From positions 1-24,706 of the IMG/VR virus record IMGVR_UViG_3300010160_000212: a stretch of 24,706 nucleotides of DNA. One strand, 5' to 3'. The notes under the pieces were generated by a model, which ran no database searches, had not been told where the DNA came from, and saw nothing but the letters and a program-made list of their open reading frames with translations. Below are positions 2,674 through 20,122 of this stretch, one piece after another (positions within the stretch are counted from its first letter, which is position 1; each line of letters starts with the position of its first letter). This DNA is from a virus. The position numbers and the translations under genes were made by a program.

Positions 2674-3036
2674 ATGCAAACAGAAAAATTAGTATTTGAA
2701 AAATTATTTTCTGCTGATAAAGTTGAATTGGAATCGCAGAGAATTGAATTAGGAATAATTCAAGATGCTATACAAAACAGTCAAGATGCTATAAAGGAAT
2801 TTCAAACTGCGTCTTCAATTATTAGCAATGCAAAAAGTAAAGCAGATGTTAATTTAAAAAAATCTATTGCTTTAGGAAATGCTTTTTTAAATGGTGTAAA
2901 TGAAATTAAAAAAACAGCTAAAGCATTCGGAATTGATGTACCTCAAGAAATTTTAAGAGAAGAAAAATTTGCAAATGCAACAATAGTAAGTTCTCAAAAT
3001 TTATTAAAATTTTTAAATCAATTAGAAAAAGAATAA
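2674..3036 (+). CDS. Coiled-coil protein of the head-assembly module
   Basis: The 120-residue protein is almost entirely predicted helix: charged heptads with many Lys, Glu, Gln and Ala, and no Cys, signal or membrane segment. It starts eight bases after the preceding stop and is followed 15 bp later by the scaffold-like gene. A scaffolding-accessory or internal head protein is the natural guess. The gene is visibly more AT-rich than its neighbours, with long runs of Lys AAA and Asn AAT codons, which may mean separate origin. No family recognised. Confidence 0.6.
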   Translation: MQTEKLVFEKLFSADKVELESQRIELGIIQDAIQNSQDAIKEFQTASSIISNAKSKADVNLKKSIALGNAFLNGVNEIKKTAKAFGIDVPQEILREEKFANATIVSSQNLLKFLNQLEKE

Positions 3037-5297: not shown

Positions 5298-5732
5298 ATG
5301 ATTCTATTGAAGCAAATTGCAACGGCCCAACAAATTAAGTTTATTCCGACACGGAGTGGAAGGCCGAATGAGTTAATATTGAAAAATGAAACGACTAGCG
5401 TGCAAAGTCAGTATTATATTGATTGCACGACTGAATCGTTTTACACTAAATTTTCGAAAATTCTTGATTTAAAAGAAGGCCATTTTTATACGTTGACGAT
5501 CAACGAAAATTCCGACAAAACTAATATTGATAATTTTGCGTCGAGGGTTGTGGCGGATGGTGGAACGTATGAAGGGGAATCGTGTTTATACTCGTTTTAC
5601 TCATTGTTTGCCCATACAACTACTTCGGTACACTTGGACAAGGTATTTGTCACAAATCAAGTTATCGACGATTATAGCATAAATAAAAACGAATATCTAC
5701 AAAATTCGTCAAATATAATTTTCTATGAATAG
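5298..5732 (+). CDS. Hypothetical protein upstream of portal, 144 aa
   Basis: A 144-residue soluble protein of mixed alpha/beta character, beginning MILLKQIATAQQIKFIPTR, with several Tyr/Phe-rich strands (about 38-60 and 95-120) and no signal or membrane segment. I do not recognise the family. It overlaps the portal gene by 8 bp, suggesting translational coupling, so a head or neck component (decoration or tail-completion) is plausible. It is the first gene after the second terminator. No convincing promoter is visible in the 32 bp between them, so read-through from upstream or an unrecognised late promoter must serve it. Confidence 0.6.
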   Translation: MILLKQIATAQQIKFIPTRSGRPNELILKNETTSVQSQYYIDCTTESFYTKFSKILDLKEGHFYTLTINENSDKTNIDNFASRVVADGGTYEGESCLYSFYSLFAHTTTSVHLDKVFVTNQVIDDYSINKNEYLQNSSNIIFYE

Positions 5733-7482
5733 GAAAAAAGAAAATAGCGGTTTACATTTTGTTCAATTAGAGGCTTATTCAGCCCCTAAGATGACGGAAA
5801 ACAACCGTGATGCGTGGGTTGGATTTGGCGAGGATAACAATTTCTTTCAGTTTTTGATTGATCGATACAACGGATCAACGACAAATAATGCCGTTATTAA
5901 TAACGTAATAAAATTGATCTACGGACGTGGCTTAGATGCTACGGATTCAAGCAAAAAGCCCAACGAATATGCTCAAATGATGATGCTATTTCGAAAGGAT
6001 ATTGTTAAAAAAGGAGTGGCAGACCTTAAAATGTTGGGCCAATATGCCTATCAATTAATTTACAACAAGTCAAAGGATGCCATCATTCGGGTTGAGCATA
6101 TTCCAGTACAATTATTAAGGGCCGAGAAGTGTAATAAAAAAGGAGAAATTGAAGCGTATTATTATTCTGATAATTGGGAGGATACAAAGAAATTTGTACC
6201 TAAACGCATTTCGGCTTTTGGTTATGGCGATAAAACCTTGGAAATCCTTTATATTGGAAATTATACGGTAGGTCAAAAGTATTATTCAAATGTTGATTAC
6301 ATAGGTGCGATTCCCTATGCTAAATTAGAGGAAGAAATTGCGGATTATTTGATTAACGATGTTCAAAACGGATTCAGCCCGACAAGCGTTGTTAACTTTA
6401 ATAATGGAATACCTGATGAAGAAAAAAGGGAATTAATTAGTCGACAAGTTTCTGCGACATTAACCGGATCGAAGGGTAAAAAAGTTGTCGTTTCATTTAA
6501 TAATGATGAAACCAAAAAGACTACGGTAGATTCTATTCCGCTAAATGATGCGCCGGCACATTATCAATATTTAAGTGAAGAATCAAGGTCGAAAATTTTG
6601 TTAGGTCATGGTGTTGTTAGTGGTTTGCAGTTTGGAATTCCTTCCGCAAATGGATTTAGTTCAAATGCGGATGAACTAAAAAATGCAATTACCTTATTTG
6701 ACAACATGGTAATTCGTTATTTTCAAGATACGTTTCTAGATGGAATTGATAAAGTATTGGCATTTAATGGAATTGCTTTAAATCTATATTTTAGAACTTT
6801 GCAACCTTTGGATTTTGTTGATTTAAACCCTATTGCCGATAAAGCTACGGCTGAGGAAGCTACCGGAGTAAAGTTATCTGAGCATATTGACGAATTAGAA
6901 TTAGAGGAATTTGGCGAATATATTGACCTTAATGAATGGGAATTAATTGATGCAAGGGTTGTTGAAGACATAGATGAAGATACTAGGTTAGATATTGAAT
7001 TGGAGGCAATGAATAACCCTAAAAAATCATTATTTTCAAAATTGTATAATTTTGTAACTACCGGAGTTGCACGACCTGATTTAAAATCTGAGCAAGACGG
7101 TAAATTGTTTATCTCTAGGTATCGTTATGCCGGAGAAACTACGGATAAAAGCCGTCCTTTTTGTGTAAAGATGACACGATTAAACAAACTTTATAGAAAA
7201 GAGGACATTAAATTAATGAGTGATAAAGCAAGTACAAATCCGGGATGGGCACCGAAAGGAAAGAAGACCTATGACATATTTTTGTACAAGGGTGGAGGCG
7301 CTTGCCATCATTTTTGGGTTCGAGAAACCTATAAAAGATTTACTGATCCACGAAAAAAGGGAAGCGAGCAAATAACACCGGCACAAGCAAGGAAGCAAGG
7401 AGAGATATTGCCAACAAATAACAAGTTAGTTTATACGAAGCCGATAGATATGCCCAATAAAGGATTTTTACCAAAAGGATAA
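5725..7482 (+). CDS. Portal protein with a C-terminal accessory domain
   Basis: The 585-residue protein has a portal-like core: an early WVGFGEDNNFFQFLIDRYNG segment (about 31-50), a central region ending in a crown/stem-like SRSKILLGHGVVSGLQFGIP (about 288-307), and a helical stretch to about 430. Portals form the dodecameric ring through which DNA is packaged. After about residue 450 comes a separate basic domain with SRPFC (about 475-480) and a GGGACHHFWVRETY segment (about 520-535). This resembles the Cys/His-rich end of Mu F-like head morphogenesis proteins, and suggests a fusion that replaces a separate F-like gene. The order is unusual: portal follows the capsid gene and is far from terminase. 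Confidence 0.75.
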   Translation: MNRKKENSGLHFVQLEAYSAPKMTENNRDAWVGFGEDNNFFQFLIDRYNGSTTNNAVINNVIKLIYGRGLDATDSSKKPNEYAQMMMLFRKDIVKKGVADLKMLGQYAYQLIYNKSKDAIIRVEHIPVQLLRAEKCNKKGEIEAYYYSDNWEDTKKFVPKRISAFGYGDKTLEILYIGNYTVGQKYYSNVDYIGAIPYAKLEEEIADYLINDVQNGFSPTSVVNFNNGIPDEEKRELISRQVSATLTGSKGKKVVVSFNNDETKKTTVDSIPLNDAPAHYQYLSEESRSKILLGHGVVSGLQFGIPSANGFSSNADELKNAITLFDNMVIRYFQDTFLDGIDKVLAFNGIALNLYFRTLQPLDFVDLNPIADKATAEEATGVKLSEHIDELELEEFGEYIDLNEWELIDARVVEDIDEDTRLDIELEAMNNPKKSLFSKLYNFVTTGVARPDLKSEQDGKLFISRYRYAGETTDKSRPFCVKMTRLNKLYRKEDIKLMSDKASTNPGWAPKGKKTYDIFLYKGGGACHHFWVRETYKRFTDPRKKGSEQITPAQARKQGEILPTNNKLVYTKPIDMPNKGFLPKG

Positions 7483-14303: not shown

Positions 14304-14464
14304 AAGAATTAACTTTTAACGAGTGGCAAGACCATATCGCACGGCAATTAGAAGCCGATTATAACAAAATTTTTAATCAACCTAAATTACAAATTAATGA
14401 AAAGTTTTATCAAATTTCACGAAGAAAATCCAAAAATTTACGATCAGTTCAAGGAAATCGCTAA
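14300..14464 (+). CDS. Small basic hypothetical protein, 54 aa
   Basis: Start at the ATG coupled to the preceding microprotein stop; the longer frame from 14270 has a poor N-terminus. The 54-residue product MKELTFNEWQDHIARQLEAD... has an acidic helical N-terminal half and a very basic C-terminal end (KFYQISRRKSKNLRSVQGNR). The last 68 bp overlap the next gene in another frame, which is long for this genome, so the true end of function may be upstream or one of the two frames may be wrong. No family recognised. Confidence 0.4.
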   Translation: MKELTFNEWQDHIARQLEADYNKIFNQPKLQINEKFYQISRRKSKNLRSVQGNR

Positions 14465-14669
14465 CCTTTATATTAGCAAAGGCGAAAGGCGAATCAAGGC
14501 CGAAACAATCTGCGAGATCATTCGATTTCAATTGATTAAGGAGTTTAACGATGGGCATAAATTCATCAGGTTTTTTGCCCAAGATTATGCAAAGAAGTTT
14601 GAAAATGATTATCCGCAACACGTTGGAATCTTTACAAAACGATTGGTAAATTTTGAACTTGAAGATTAA
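14397..14669 (+). CDS. Conserved-type phage protein of unknown function, 90 aa
   Basis: A 90-residue helical protein beginning MKSFIKFHEENPKIYDQFKE, a pattern ('F.KFH..NP..Y..F') I recall from small early phage proteins of several host groups, with an IRFQLI segment (about 42-47) and a C-terminal YAKKFENDYPQHVGIFTKRL. The family is widespread but uncharacterised as far as I know. It is the last gene before the replication-locus promoter and leader. A DNA- or replication-associated role is possible by location. Confidence 0.6.
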   Translation: MKSFIKFHEENPKIYDQFKEIANLYISKGERRIKAETICEIIRFQLIKEFNDGHKFIRFFAQDYAKKFENDYPQHVGIFTKRLVNFELED

Positions 14670-14682
14670 TTTGCTATATTGC
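14653..14682 (+). promoter_or_regulatory. Candidate promoter of the replication locus
   Basis: TTG at 14653-14655 and TATATTGC at 14675-14682 are separated by 19 bp, close to the Bacteroidota layout (TTG, 17-23 bp, TAnnTTTG; the -7 box is one base short of consensus). Transcription would begin near 14689, giving a leader of about 100 nt that holds the structure at 14702-14774. Confidence 0.4.
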
Positions 14683-14701
14683 AATACAATAAGTTAAGAG
14701 G

Positions 14702-14779
14702 GTCGGAGTTCTTAATTTGTTCTAAAGGTTTATAAAACCCGAAGCCTGTTTGCACTCCGACGCATTCAGGCTTTTTTTT
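14702..14779 (+). promoter_or_regulatory. Structured leader: terminator with interleaved upstream stem
   Basis: AAGCCTG (14742-14748) pairs with CAGGCTT (14767-14773), followed by a run of T (14772-14779): an intrinsic terminator with an 18-nt loop. GTCGGAGT (14702-14709) is perfectly complementary to ACTCCGAC (14754-14761), which lies inside that loop. The two helices interleave, so the RNA could form an H-type pseudoknot or switch between exclusive folds. A small hairpin GGTTT/AAACC (14727-14731, 14735-14739) sits between. Located just upstream of the replication initiator gene, it may attenuate its expression. Confidence 0.65.
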
Positions 14780-14788
14780 ATTTTCAAT

Positions 14789-15580
14789 ATGGAAAAAGAA
14801 TCATTTTATTTCCCACATTTCTGTAATGCTAGGCACGATCGAAAGATTCGCAGAATGAGAAAAGAATTAGGCACGGAAGGTTACGGAATTTATTTTATGT
14901 TACTGGAGACATTAAGAGAGCAACACGATTTAATGTATCCAATGGAGGACATTGATTTATTAGCCGAGGAGTTTGATGTATCAGAAGCAAAGGTTAGAGT
15001 TATAATTTGTAATTATGGACTTTTTGCAATTGATGAGGATGAAAAGTTTTTCAGTCCTAAAATGTTACTTTACTTGGAACCTTATTTTAAAATGAAGGAA
15101 CAAAGGAAGTTAGCCGGACAAAAGAGTGCTGCTAAACGAATGTTAAACGAAAGTTCAACGACTGTTCAACAATCGTTCAACGACCGTTCAACAAAGGAAA
15201 GTAAAGTAAAAGAAAGTAAAGTAAAAGAAAGTAAAGTAAATGAAATTAAAGAAAAAGAAAGTAAAGAGAGTTTTAGCGAAATGCTTTCGCCATATATTCA
15301 AGAATTAAATTCTGAATATGATAATTTCTTTTTATACTGGACTGAAAAAAATTCAGTTGGCAAAGAACGATGGCAATCTGAAAAGTTTTTTGATATTAGC
15401 AGAAGGATTAAAACTTGGATGCAAAATCAAAATAAATTTGGAAACAAAAAACCTTTAACAAATTCAGAACCGGCACCTGGTAAGATGACTAAGAATCTTA
15501 ATCAGATGCAAGAAATTTACGAAGAAACTTTAGAACAAATAGCAAATGGAACTTATCACAATCCCTTCATCCGGAAATAG
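14789..15580 (+). CDS. Replication initiator (DUF4373 / Lin1244-Lin1753 N-terminal type)
   Basis: The 263-residue protein begins MEKESFYFPHFCNARHDRKI, followed by RRMRKELGTEGYGIYFMLLE, the hallmark of the Lin1244/Lin1753-like (DUF4373) winged-helix domain found at the start of phage replication proteins (about 1-105). A linker follows (about 110-165) with SSTTVQQS and the low-complexity KESKVK repeats, then a second helical domain (about 165-225) and a tail ending NPFIRK. I place the start at 14789, not the in-frame 14750 inside the terminator. The gene body holds iterons and an AT-rich tract, so it may both encode the initiator and contain the origin. The next gene overlaps by 35 bp. Confidence 0.7.
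   Translation: MEKESFYFPHFCNARHDRKIRRMRKELGTEGYGIYFMLLETLREQHDLMYPMEDIDLLAEEFDVSEAKVRVIICNYGLFAIDEDEKFFSPKMLLYLEPYFKMKEQRKLAGQKSAAKRMLNESSTTVQQSFNDRSTKESKVKESKVKESKVNEIKEKESKESFSEMLSPYIQELNSEYDNFFLYWTEKNSVGKERWQSEKFFDISRRIKTWMQNQNKFGNKKPLTNSEPAPGKMTKNLNQMQEIYEETLEQIANGTYHNPFIRK
15131..15196 (+). repeat. Six 11-bp iterons (GTTCAAC core), candidate replication origin
   Basis: GTTCAAC occurs at 15153, 15164, 15175 and 15186, exactly 11 bp apart. GTTAAAC (15142) and GCTAAAC (15131) extend the same register to six units. The core is a symmetric GTTnAAC site, so each unit is a small palindrome and all face the same side of the helix. The period is not a multiple of three and the codons read the core in all three frames, so the protein does not repeat: the pattern is kept at DNA level. 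The position inside the initiator gene mirrors lambda O. Confidence 0.8.
15197..15271 (+). repeat. AT-rich 15-bp tandem repeat next to the iterons
   Basis: Units of the type GAAAGTAAAGTAAAA start at 15197, 15212 and 15227 with one or no change, followed by two degenerate units (15242, 15257). One strand is purine-rich and lacks C. The 15-bp period equals five codons (ESKVK). The tract begins where the iterons end, as an origin unwinding element would. A simple protein linker repeat is the alternative. Confidence 0.7.
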
Positions 15581-19654: not shown

Positions 19655-20122
19655 GTGGTAAGCATTAACCACCTTATTGACAAACATAAACATTGGATAA
19701 CCGTAGTAAAAAGATTCGGGGAAAATACCTACGCCGAGGATATAGTCCAGGAAGCCTACATAAAAATCATTCAATCTAACAAAAATGTAAATTTTGCCTA
19801 TTTCTATTTTACTTTGCGATCATTGACAATGAATCTGCATAACAAGAAAGTTATCAAGATAGAAATCACAAAAGACATTGAATATTTATTGAGCGATTCC
19901 ATTGAAGAAGATATAGTTTTAGAATTGGCTCAACCGTTTATTGACTACATTCAGACCTGGGAAGATTACGAAAGAATGCTATTTATGGTTTATGTTAATA
20001 AGGGAGTTTCAATGAGGAAAATGGCAAGGGAATCAGGAATAAGTTTTACAAGCATTTATAACACAATAAGAAACTGCAAATTAAAATTAATACAATGGCA
20101 AAAAGAAAACCAAAAGGATTAG
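19655..20122 (+). CDS. Sigma-70-family (ECF-like) sigma factor candidate
   Basis: The 155-residue protein has the compact layout of ECF sigma factors. A region-2-like segment WITVVKRFGENTYAEDIVQE with AYIKI (about 14-38) would bind core RNA polymerase and the -10 element. A C-terminal region-4-like helix-turn-helix follows (MVYVNKGVSMRKMARESGIS, about 108-127), then SFTSIYNTIRN. The start is a GTG at 19655; no better ATG is in frame. It may redirect host RNA polymerase to late phage promoters. It overlaps the next gene by 28 bp. Confidence 0.65.
   Translation: MVSINHLIDKHKHWITVVKRFGENTYAEDIVQEAYIKIIQSNKNVNFAYFYFTLRSLTMNLHNKKVIKIEITKDIEYLLSDSIEEDIVLELAQPFIDYIQTWEDYERMLFMVYVNKGVSMRKMARESGISFTSIYNTIRNCKLKLIQWQKENQKD

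Follow-up and report, generated by a model that had tools for sequence, protein, structure and literature searches.

The window analysed here is an entire virus contig of 24.7 kb, whose terminase is 67.7% identical to that of Nonlabens phage P12024S. This identity and the promoter type point to a Bacteroidota-type host group. At 19655-20122 the window also codes for a sigma-70 region 2-like protein that has an annotated counterpart in Nonlabens phage P12024 (gp33). The region of interest (Table 1) extends from a small gene, whose protein model gave no clear fold match, through a promoter and a structured leader to the gene of a replication initiator. Arrays of iteron-like repeats lie inside the latter, the 15-bp array encoding a KESKV peptide repeat. 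The arrays are the probable replication origin, so that transcription proceeding past the leader would cross it.

Table 1. Coordinates of the leader, its flanking genes and the corresponding element of a cultured phage (window positions except in the last line)
Feature	Position	Strand	Composition	Basis or remark
Upstream small gene (phrog_13625)	14397-14669	+		neighbour in classes A, B and D
Promoter	14652-14682	+	-33-like TTTG 14652-14655; 19-bp spacer; -7 element TATATTGC 14675-14682	Bacteroidota consensus TAnnTTTG
P1 hairpin	14688-14721	+	stem 14688-14699/14710-14721; 10-nt loop GGGTCGGAGT 14700-14709	fold; double compensatory changes
Kissing helix, 5' half	14702-14708	+	GTCGGAG	100% paired in 43 sequences; 36/36 in the unbiased set
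P2 weak hairpin, between P1 and terminator	14727-14739	+	GGTTT/AAACC	fold; class A only
P3 intrinsic-terminator-like hairpin	14741-14779	+	basal stem 14743-14748/14767-14772; apical TGC/GCA 14751-14753/14762-14764; T-run 14772-14779	sequence; fold, predicted -14.3 kcal/mol
Kissing helix, 3' half, in terminator loop	14755-14761	+	CTCCGAC	sequence and covariation
Replication initiation gene (Lin1244_N, PF14297; phrog_2562)	14789-15580	+		ATG 9 nt past the T-run
Iteron-like repeats inside the initiator gene	15135-15267	+	11-bp units 15135-15189; 15-bp units 15193-15267	putative origin role
Element of Tenacibaculum phage JQ (MT002873.2)	P1 near 35959; kiss at 35967 and 36025; terminator end near 36055		P1 GTTAC..GTAAC; kiss AGCATCCTAC/GTAGGATGCT	

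The segments GTCGGAGT (14702-14709) and ACTCCGAC (14754-14761) are perfect reverse complements, the latter being located inside the loop of the terminator-like hairpin. This loop has 18 nt (14749-14766) and is closed by the stem AGCCTG/CAGGCT, of up to 7-8 bp, followed directly by 8 T (14772-14779). These letters, the small hairpin placed between the two helices and the promoter-like pair upstream are all present as given in a preliminary description of this DNA. The crossing helices had been read there as an H-type pseudoknot, an assignment that does not hold: the outside segment is part of the loop of a 12-bp hairpin, P1, whose stem covaries strongly and which is the dominant feature of the minimum-energy fold (z = -2.8). 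This makes the crossing helix a loop-loop (kissing) interaction, to which T14709 can give an eighth pair. The proposal of a structured leader of the initiator mRNA ending in a terminator stands, and the leader is conserved; its coordinates were too narrow, the whole element spanning 14688-14779 plus the promoter and corresponding to an RNA of ~90 nt. The layout is that of an intrinsic terminator in a leader attenuator, with a G+C-rich stem running directly into a U-run between promoter and start codon. Among 2000 dinucleotide-shuffled versions of the region, 16 contain some element with complementarity between a hairpin loop and a terminator loop, and a chance explanation is excluded because the element is conserved across phages.

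Relatives were fetched with the downstream initiator protein (Lin1244_N) as query, which gave 79 viral loci, and by a strict pattern scan, which gave 83 loci overlapping in part with the protein-selected set. The regions upstream of the initiator in the protein-selected loci have the same arrangement with many letters changed. The alignment of class A comprises 43 non-redundant sequences, some of them picked by the kiss pattern itself. Double compensatory changes are found in 11 of 12 P1 pairs and in three of the 7 positions of the kissing helix, which is paired in all 43 sequences. Paired cells amount to 94.6% (77.9% when shuffled) and double-change cells to 136 (39 when shuffled); slid registers collapse to 4-17 and no shuffle attains any of the observed measures. 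At the P1 position 14693/14716 most class A relatives feature a G.G mismatch where the window has G.U. In most relatives 3-5 nt separate P1 from the end of the -7 element (TAnnTTTG or TATATTGC), which is found within one mismatch in 35 of the 43, versus 28% of shuffles. Start sites of F. johnsoniae lie 4-5 nt past the -7 element (PMC6847099), and with this spacing the transcript would begin at the base of P1, at about 14687-14689. The first ATG in class A is found 0-12 nt past the T-run, leaving no space for a second promoter, and P3 ends about 15-19 nt upstream of it. A look by eye for a leader peptide revealed no conserved start codon.

Because part of the 43-sequence set was selected by the kiss pattern, an unbiased test was made in which a covariance model without the kissing pairs was run on loci picked by two other initiator proteins. 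A perfect 7-bp kiss is present in 36/36 distinct class A elements of this set, distributed among six types (GTAGGAG, GTGAGAG, GTCGGAG, GTCAGAG, GTGGTAG and GTCGTAG, the last one only in the unbiased set). The preliminary description had expected both helices to be conserved with compensatory changes across related phages and had named as its refutation phages that keep the gene and lose the complementarity: P1 and the kissing helix do covary, and the complementarity is kept in each of the 36 elements. As judged by these alignments, P1, the kissing helix, the terminator-like P3, the promoter and the spacing to the ATG are shown to be conserved.

The wobble pairs of P1 in the unbiased class A set are distributed unevenly, 19 G.U versus 3 A.C, which indicates that the plus-strand RNA is under selection. 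This bears on whether the element acts as DNA, that is, as a cruciform, origin or primer-RNA structure for replication initiation. Its inverted repeats and its position next to the initiator gene would suit such a role, which is nevertheless highly improbable as only one strand tolerates G.U pairs, the element is framed by promoter and terminator, and the origin-like iterons are found elsewhere, inside the initiator gene. On the wobble asymmetry and the location of the iterons, a DNA origin or cruciform was rejected.

Leaders of unrelated sequence occupy the same place upstream of other initiators. Their P1 lies at the 5' end and its loop complements the apical loop in a compound terminator hairpin, after which come the U-run and the ATG. 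Class B has five kiss types (CTCTCGAC, CTCACTAC, CTTCTCAC, GTTCTCAC and CTCCTTAC) and class C the kiss ATGGTAC. Those of class D/E are GTCGCAT, GTCGTAT, GTCGGAT, GTAGGAT, GTTGCAG and GTACCAG; here 14 of 18 pairs have double changes, pairing amounts to 96.3% and the score is unreached by any shuffle. Class F, read by eye, features AACACAC and a related 6-bp variant, CAGCAC. Further single cases are L370, also read by eye, and L377, upstream of whose position 1293 the complementarity between the 5' part of the leader and the terminator loop reaches 13 nt (AAAACTGAGCGAC), an extreme version. More than 20 different kiss sequences are found over all classes, which have a common architecture and no common sequence motif. 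Among the protein-selected loci the element is present in 159 of 178 distinct regions of ≤900 nt upstream of initiators (including a handful of weak low-complexity matches, while the true cases L236, L290 and L367 were missed by the script) versus 10 of 178 downstream controls. The count of 57 in a reverse-strand control is too high, since a kissing pair read as its reverse complement remains a kissing pair. A local test of greater stringency yielded 88/102 versus 20/1020 shuffles.

The internal loop of class D/E (e.g., L380 1430-1470) has conserved GAUGAA/GGAUUC strands flanking the apical stem, which could form tandem G.A pairs in a loop-E or kink-turn-like motif. Upstream of a distant initiator, L095 carries at 2840-3000 a terminator-like inverted repeat with CTCCTACC inside, for which no P1 partner was found; it is possibly a degenerate or different leader. 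Two contigs, IMGVR_UViG_3300027969_000114 (59 kb) and IMGVR_UViG_3300043436_001856 (63 kb), have two leader plus initiator modules each, about 31 kb apart. Both module copies of the former are common with two separate ~30-kb contigs, and the two-module contigs are probably two phage genomes joined in assembly.

The gene that follows the leader codes for a replication initiator, with one of several amino-terminal domains, or else a small or HNH-like gene intervenes. In L008 a gene similar to HNH homing endonucleases (5306-5845) separates leader and initiator, and small ORFs are found in the same slot in many phages. The upstream neighbour also varies, being DnaA-domain-IV-like in classes C and E (by sequence reading) and winged-helix-like in class F. 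The DnaA domain-IV-like genes are placed just upstream of the class C/E leaders, as in L293, L290 and L318 (2542-2904 in L318). The phrog_13625 protein is ruled out as a universal partner since its place is taken by other DNA-binding-type genes in classes C, E and F.

In a cultured phage, Tenacibaculum phage JQ, a version with a 10-bp kiss is located upstream of the initiator operon; such a kiss was found in 0 of 2000 shuffles. No element is found at the initiator of the related Nonlabens phages P12024S/L, which have a different replication module, nor at that of Vibrio, Geobacillus, Riemerella and Porphyromonas phages. Matches to 15-mers in viral contigs were mostly due to chance, only the one in L008 being genuine; blastn with the element as query found no match among named phages, and a prophage search in 84,980 genomes found none.

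We regard it as probable that the element works in cis as a transcription attenuator within the ~100-nt leader of the initiator operon and that an intramolecular kissing loop controls its terminator. RNA polymerase would start at the base of P1, the putative start site, and P1 would fold first. Its loop would then pair over 7-8 bp with the P3 loop emerging from the same molecule. Depending on whether the basal stem of P3 closes over the U-run in time, transcription would end in a ~90-nt RNA or read through into the initiator gene, whose ATG lies within ~10 nt, and into the iterons inside that gene. The kiss could be modulated by the speed of the polymerase, by a protein that recognizes the kissing complex, by a ligand, or by further leader RNA molecules acting in trans. 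Termination and read-through are inferred, as is the direction in which the kiss acts. We lean slightly to a kiss that favours read-through, on a purely evolutionary argument: P3 is predicted to be strong by itself (median -15.9 kcal/mol across relatives), which would make a termination-aiding kiss dispensable, yet the kiss is strictly conserved. The opposite sign is quite possible by analogy with the metE corrinoid riboswitch, in which the kiss promotes the terminator (PMC10653944). No mutually exclusive antiterminator stem was found in the minimum-energy folds of several classes.

Two points speak against an attenuator. The kiss and the closed terminator are in principle sterically compatible, unlike in classical attenuators, and the closeness of P3 to the start codon would also fit a translational or mRNA-stability role. 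The kissing structure would then shield the 5' end and set ribosome access, with the U-run as an unstructured spacer. Such a role, which would agree with a 5' end located at P1 and with the end of P3 ~15-19 nt before the ATG, at the border of the zone of low structure (-20 to +20) in F. johnsoniae (PMC6847099), is quite unlikely: all classes keep the stem with an immediate U-run that characterizes intrinsic terminators, and in Bacteroidota an A-rich spacer would work better.

The preliminary description could place the element in no known class, and indeed no Rfam family matches. Rfam 15 at the gathering score gave no match for the window, for loci of classes A, B, C, D, E and F, or for phage JQ; at E≤5 there was nothing but one chance match elsewhere, and no Rfam cobalamin match, as a cobalamin aptamer would give, is found in the element. 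The HMP-PP (thiS) riboswitch is not known to have a kissing partner hairpin. Its sensing structure and terminator form one hairpin unit (PMC6478431), a likeness to the phage leader, from which it differs as a bacterial metabolite riboswitch placed upstream of thiamin genes. Corrinoid riboswitches have an L5-L13 kissing loop between an upstream hairpin and the expression-platform hairpin that controls a terminator or RBS hairpin (PMC10653944). The phage leader likewise has an upstream hairpin loop that kisses an expression-platform hairpin, but it is half the size, has no aptamer or Rfam match, carries the partner loop inside the terminator hairpin, and revealed no alternative antiterminator.

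This precedent of a switch built on a kiss between aptamer and expression platform (PMC10653944) could suggest a leader in which the P1-P3 kissing complex is recognized by a small molecule, or by a protein of phage or host origin, that determines the state of the terminator. The G.G mismatch in class A P1 and the tandem-GA-like internal loop of class D/E, suggestive of structured non-canonical motifs, would be consistent with it. We consider a sensing leader of this kind somewhat unlikely: no sequence motif is common to the classes, no Rfam aptamer matches, and the adjacent gene varies by class, leaving no common protein candidate.

In pT181-type attenuators, which are also found in the leader of a replication initiator gene, a kissing hairpin starts attenuation (PMC4878617). 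Their kiss is made with a separate antisense RNA and they have exclusive terminator and antiterminator stems, whereas the phage leader holds both kiss partners. The phage element could nevertheless act in trans as a self-kissing copy-number RNA: the terminated ~90-nt leader would accumulate with genome copies and its loops would pair with the complementary loops of leaders being transcribed from other genomes, which would shift the attenuator and exert negative feedback on the initiator. In line with this, the element invariably precedes a replication initiator, kissing loops are a hallmark of plasmid copy control as in the pT181 attenuator (PMC4878617), promoter and terminator define a discrete small RNA, and the more than 20 kiss sequences are reminiscent of incompatibility groups. 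This diversity is, however, also expected from neutral compensatory change, and an intramolecular kiss should beat an intermolecular one, so that action in trans is unlikely. A broader proposal that we hold with as little confidence is a leader superfamily of one architecture, evolved several times or diverged beyond recognition, which would time and dose the initiator and whose terminated leader would serve as copy-number signal in trans without a separate antisense gene.

The put RNA of phage HK022, of ~70 nt, forms two stem-loops directly after an early promoter and acts in cis on termination (PMC9378689). The phage leader resembles it in having RNA hairpins right after the promoter and, putatively, a cis effect on termination; put differs in that it has no terminator of its own or reported loop-loop helix, binds the zinc-binding domain of RNAP beta' and acts on distant terminators. 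The papers found describe kissing loops in riboswitches and in antisense attenuators and not the present arrangement; as the search covered the literature incompletely, an earlier description is possible. Of the three roles considered in the preliminary description, attenuator, copy-number RNA and riboswitch-like element, the first fits best: a leader attenuator with a tertiary loop-loop contact that belongs to no named family.

The element thus appears to be a hitherto undescribed RNA switch for the control of phage replication. To our knowledge, replication timing in Bacteroidota phages is essentially unknown and the regulatory RNAs of Bacteroidota are under-described. If the proposed mechanism is true, an intramolecular kiss acting on the terminator itself would be a compact, simple and engineerable switch. 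That the arrangement recurs at one gene in classes unrelated in sequence suggests that control of initiators by loop-loop contacts reaches from plasmids to phages.
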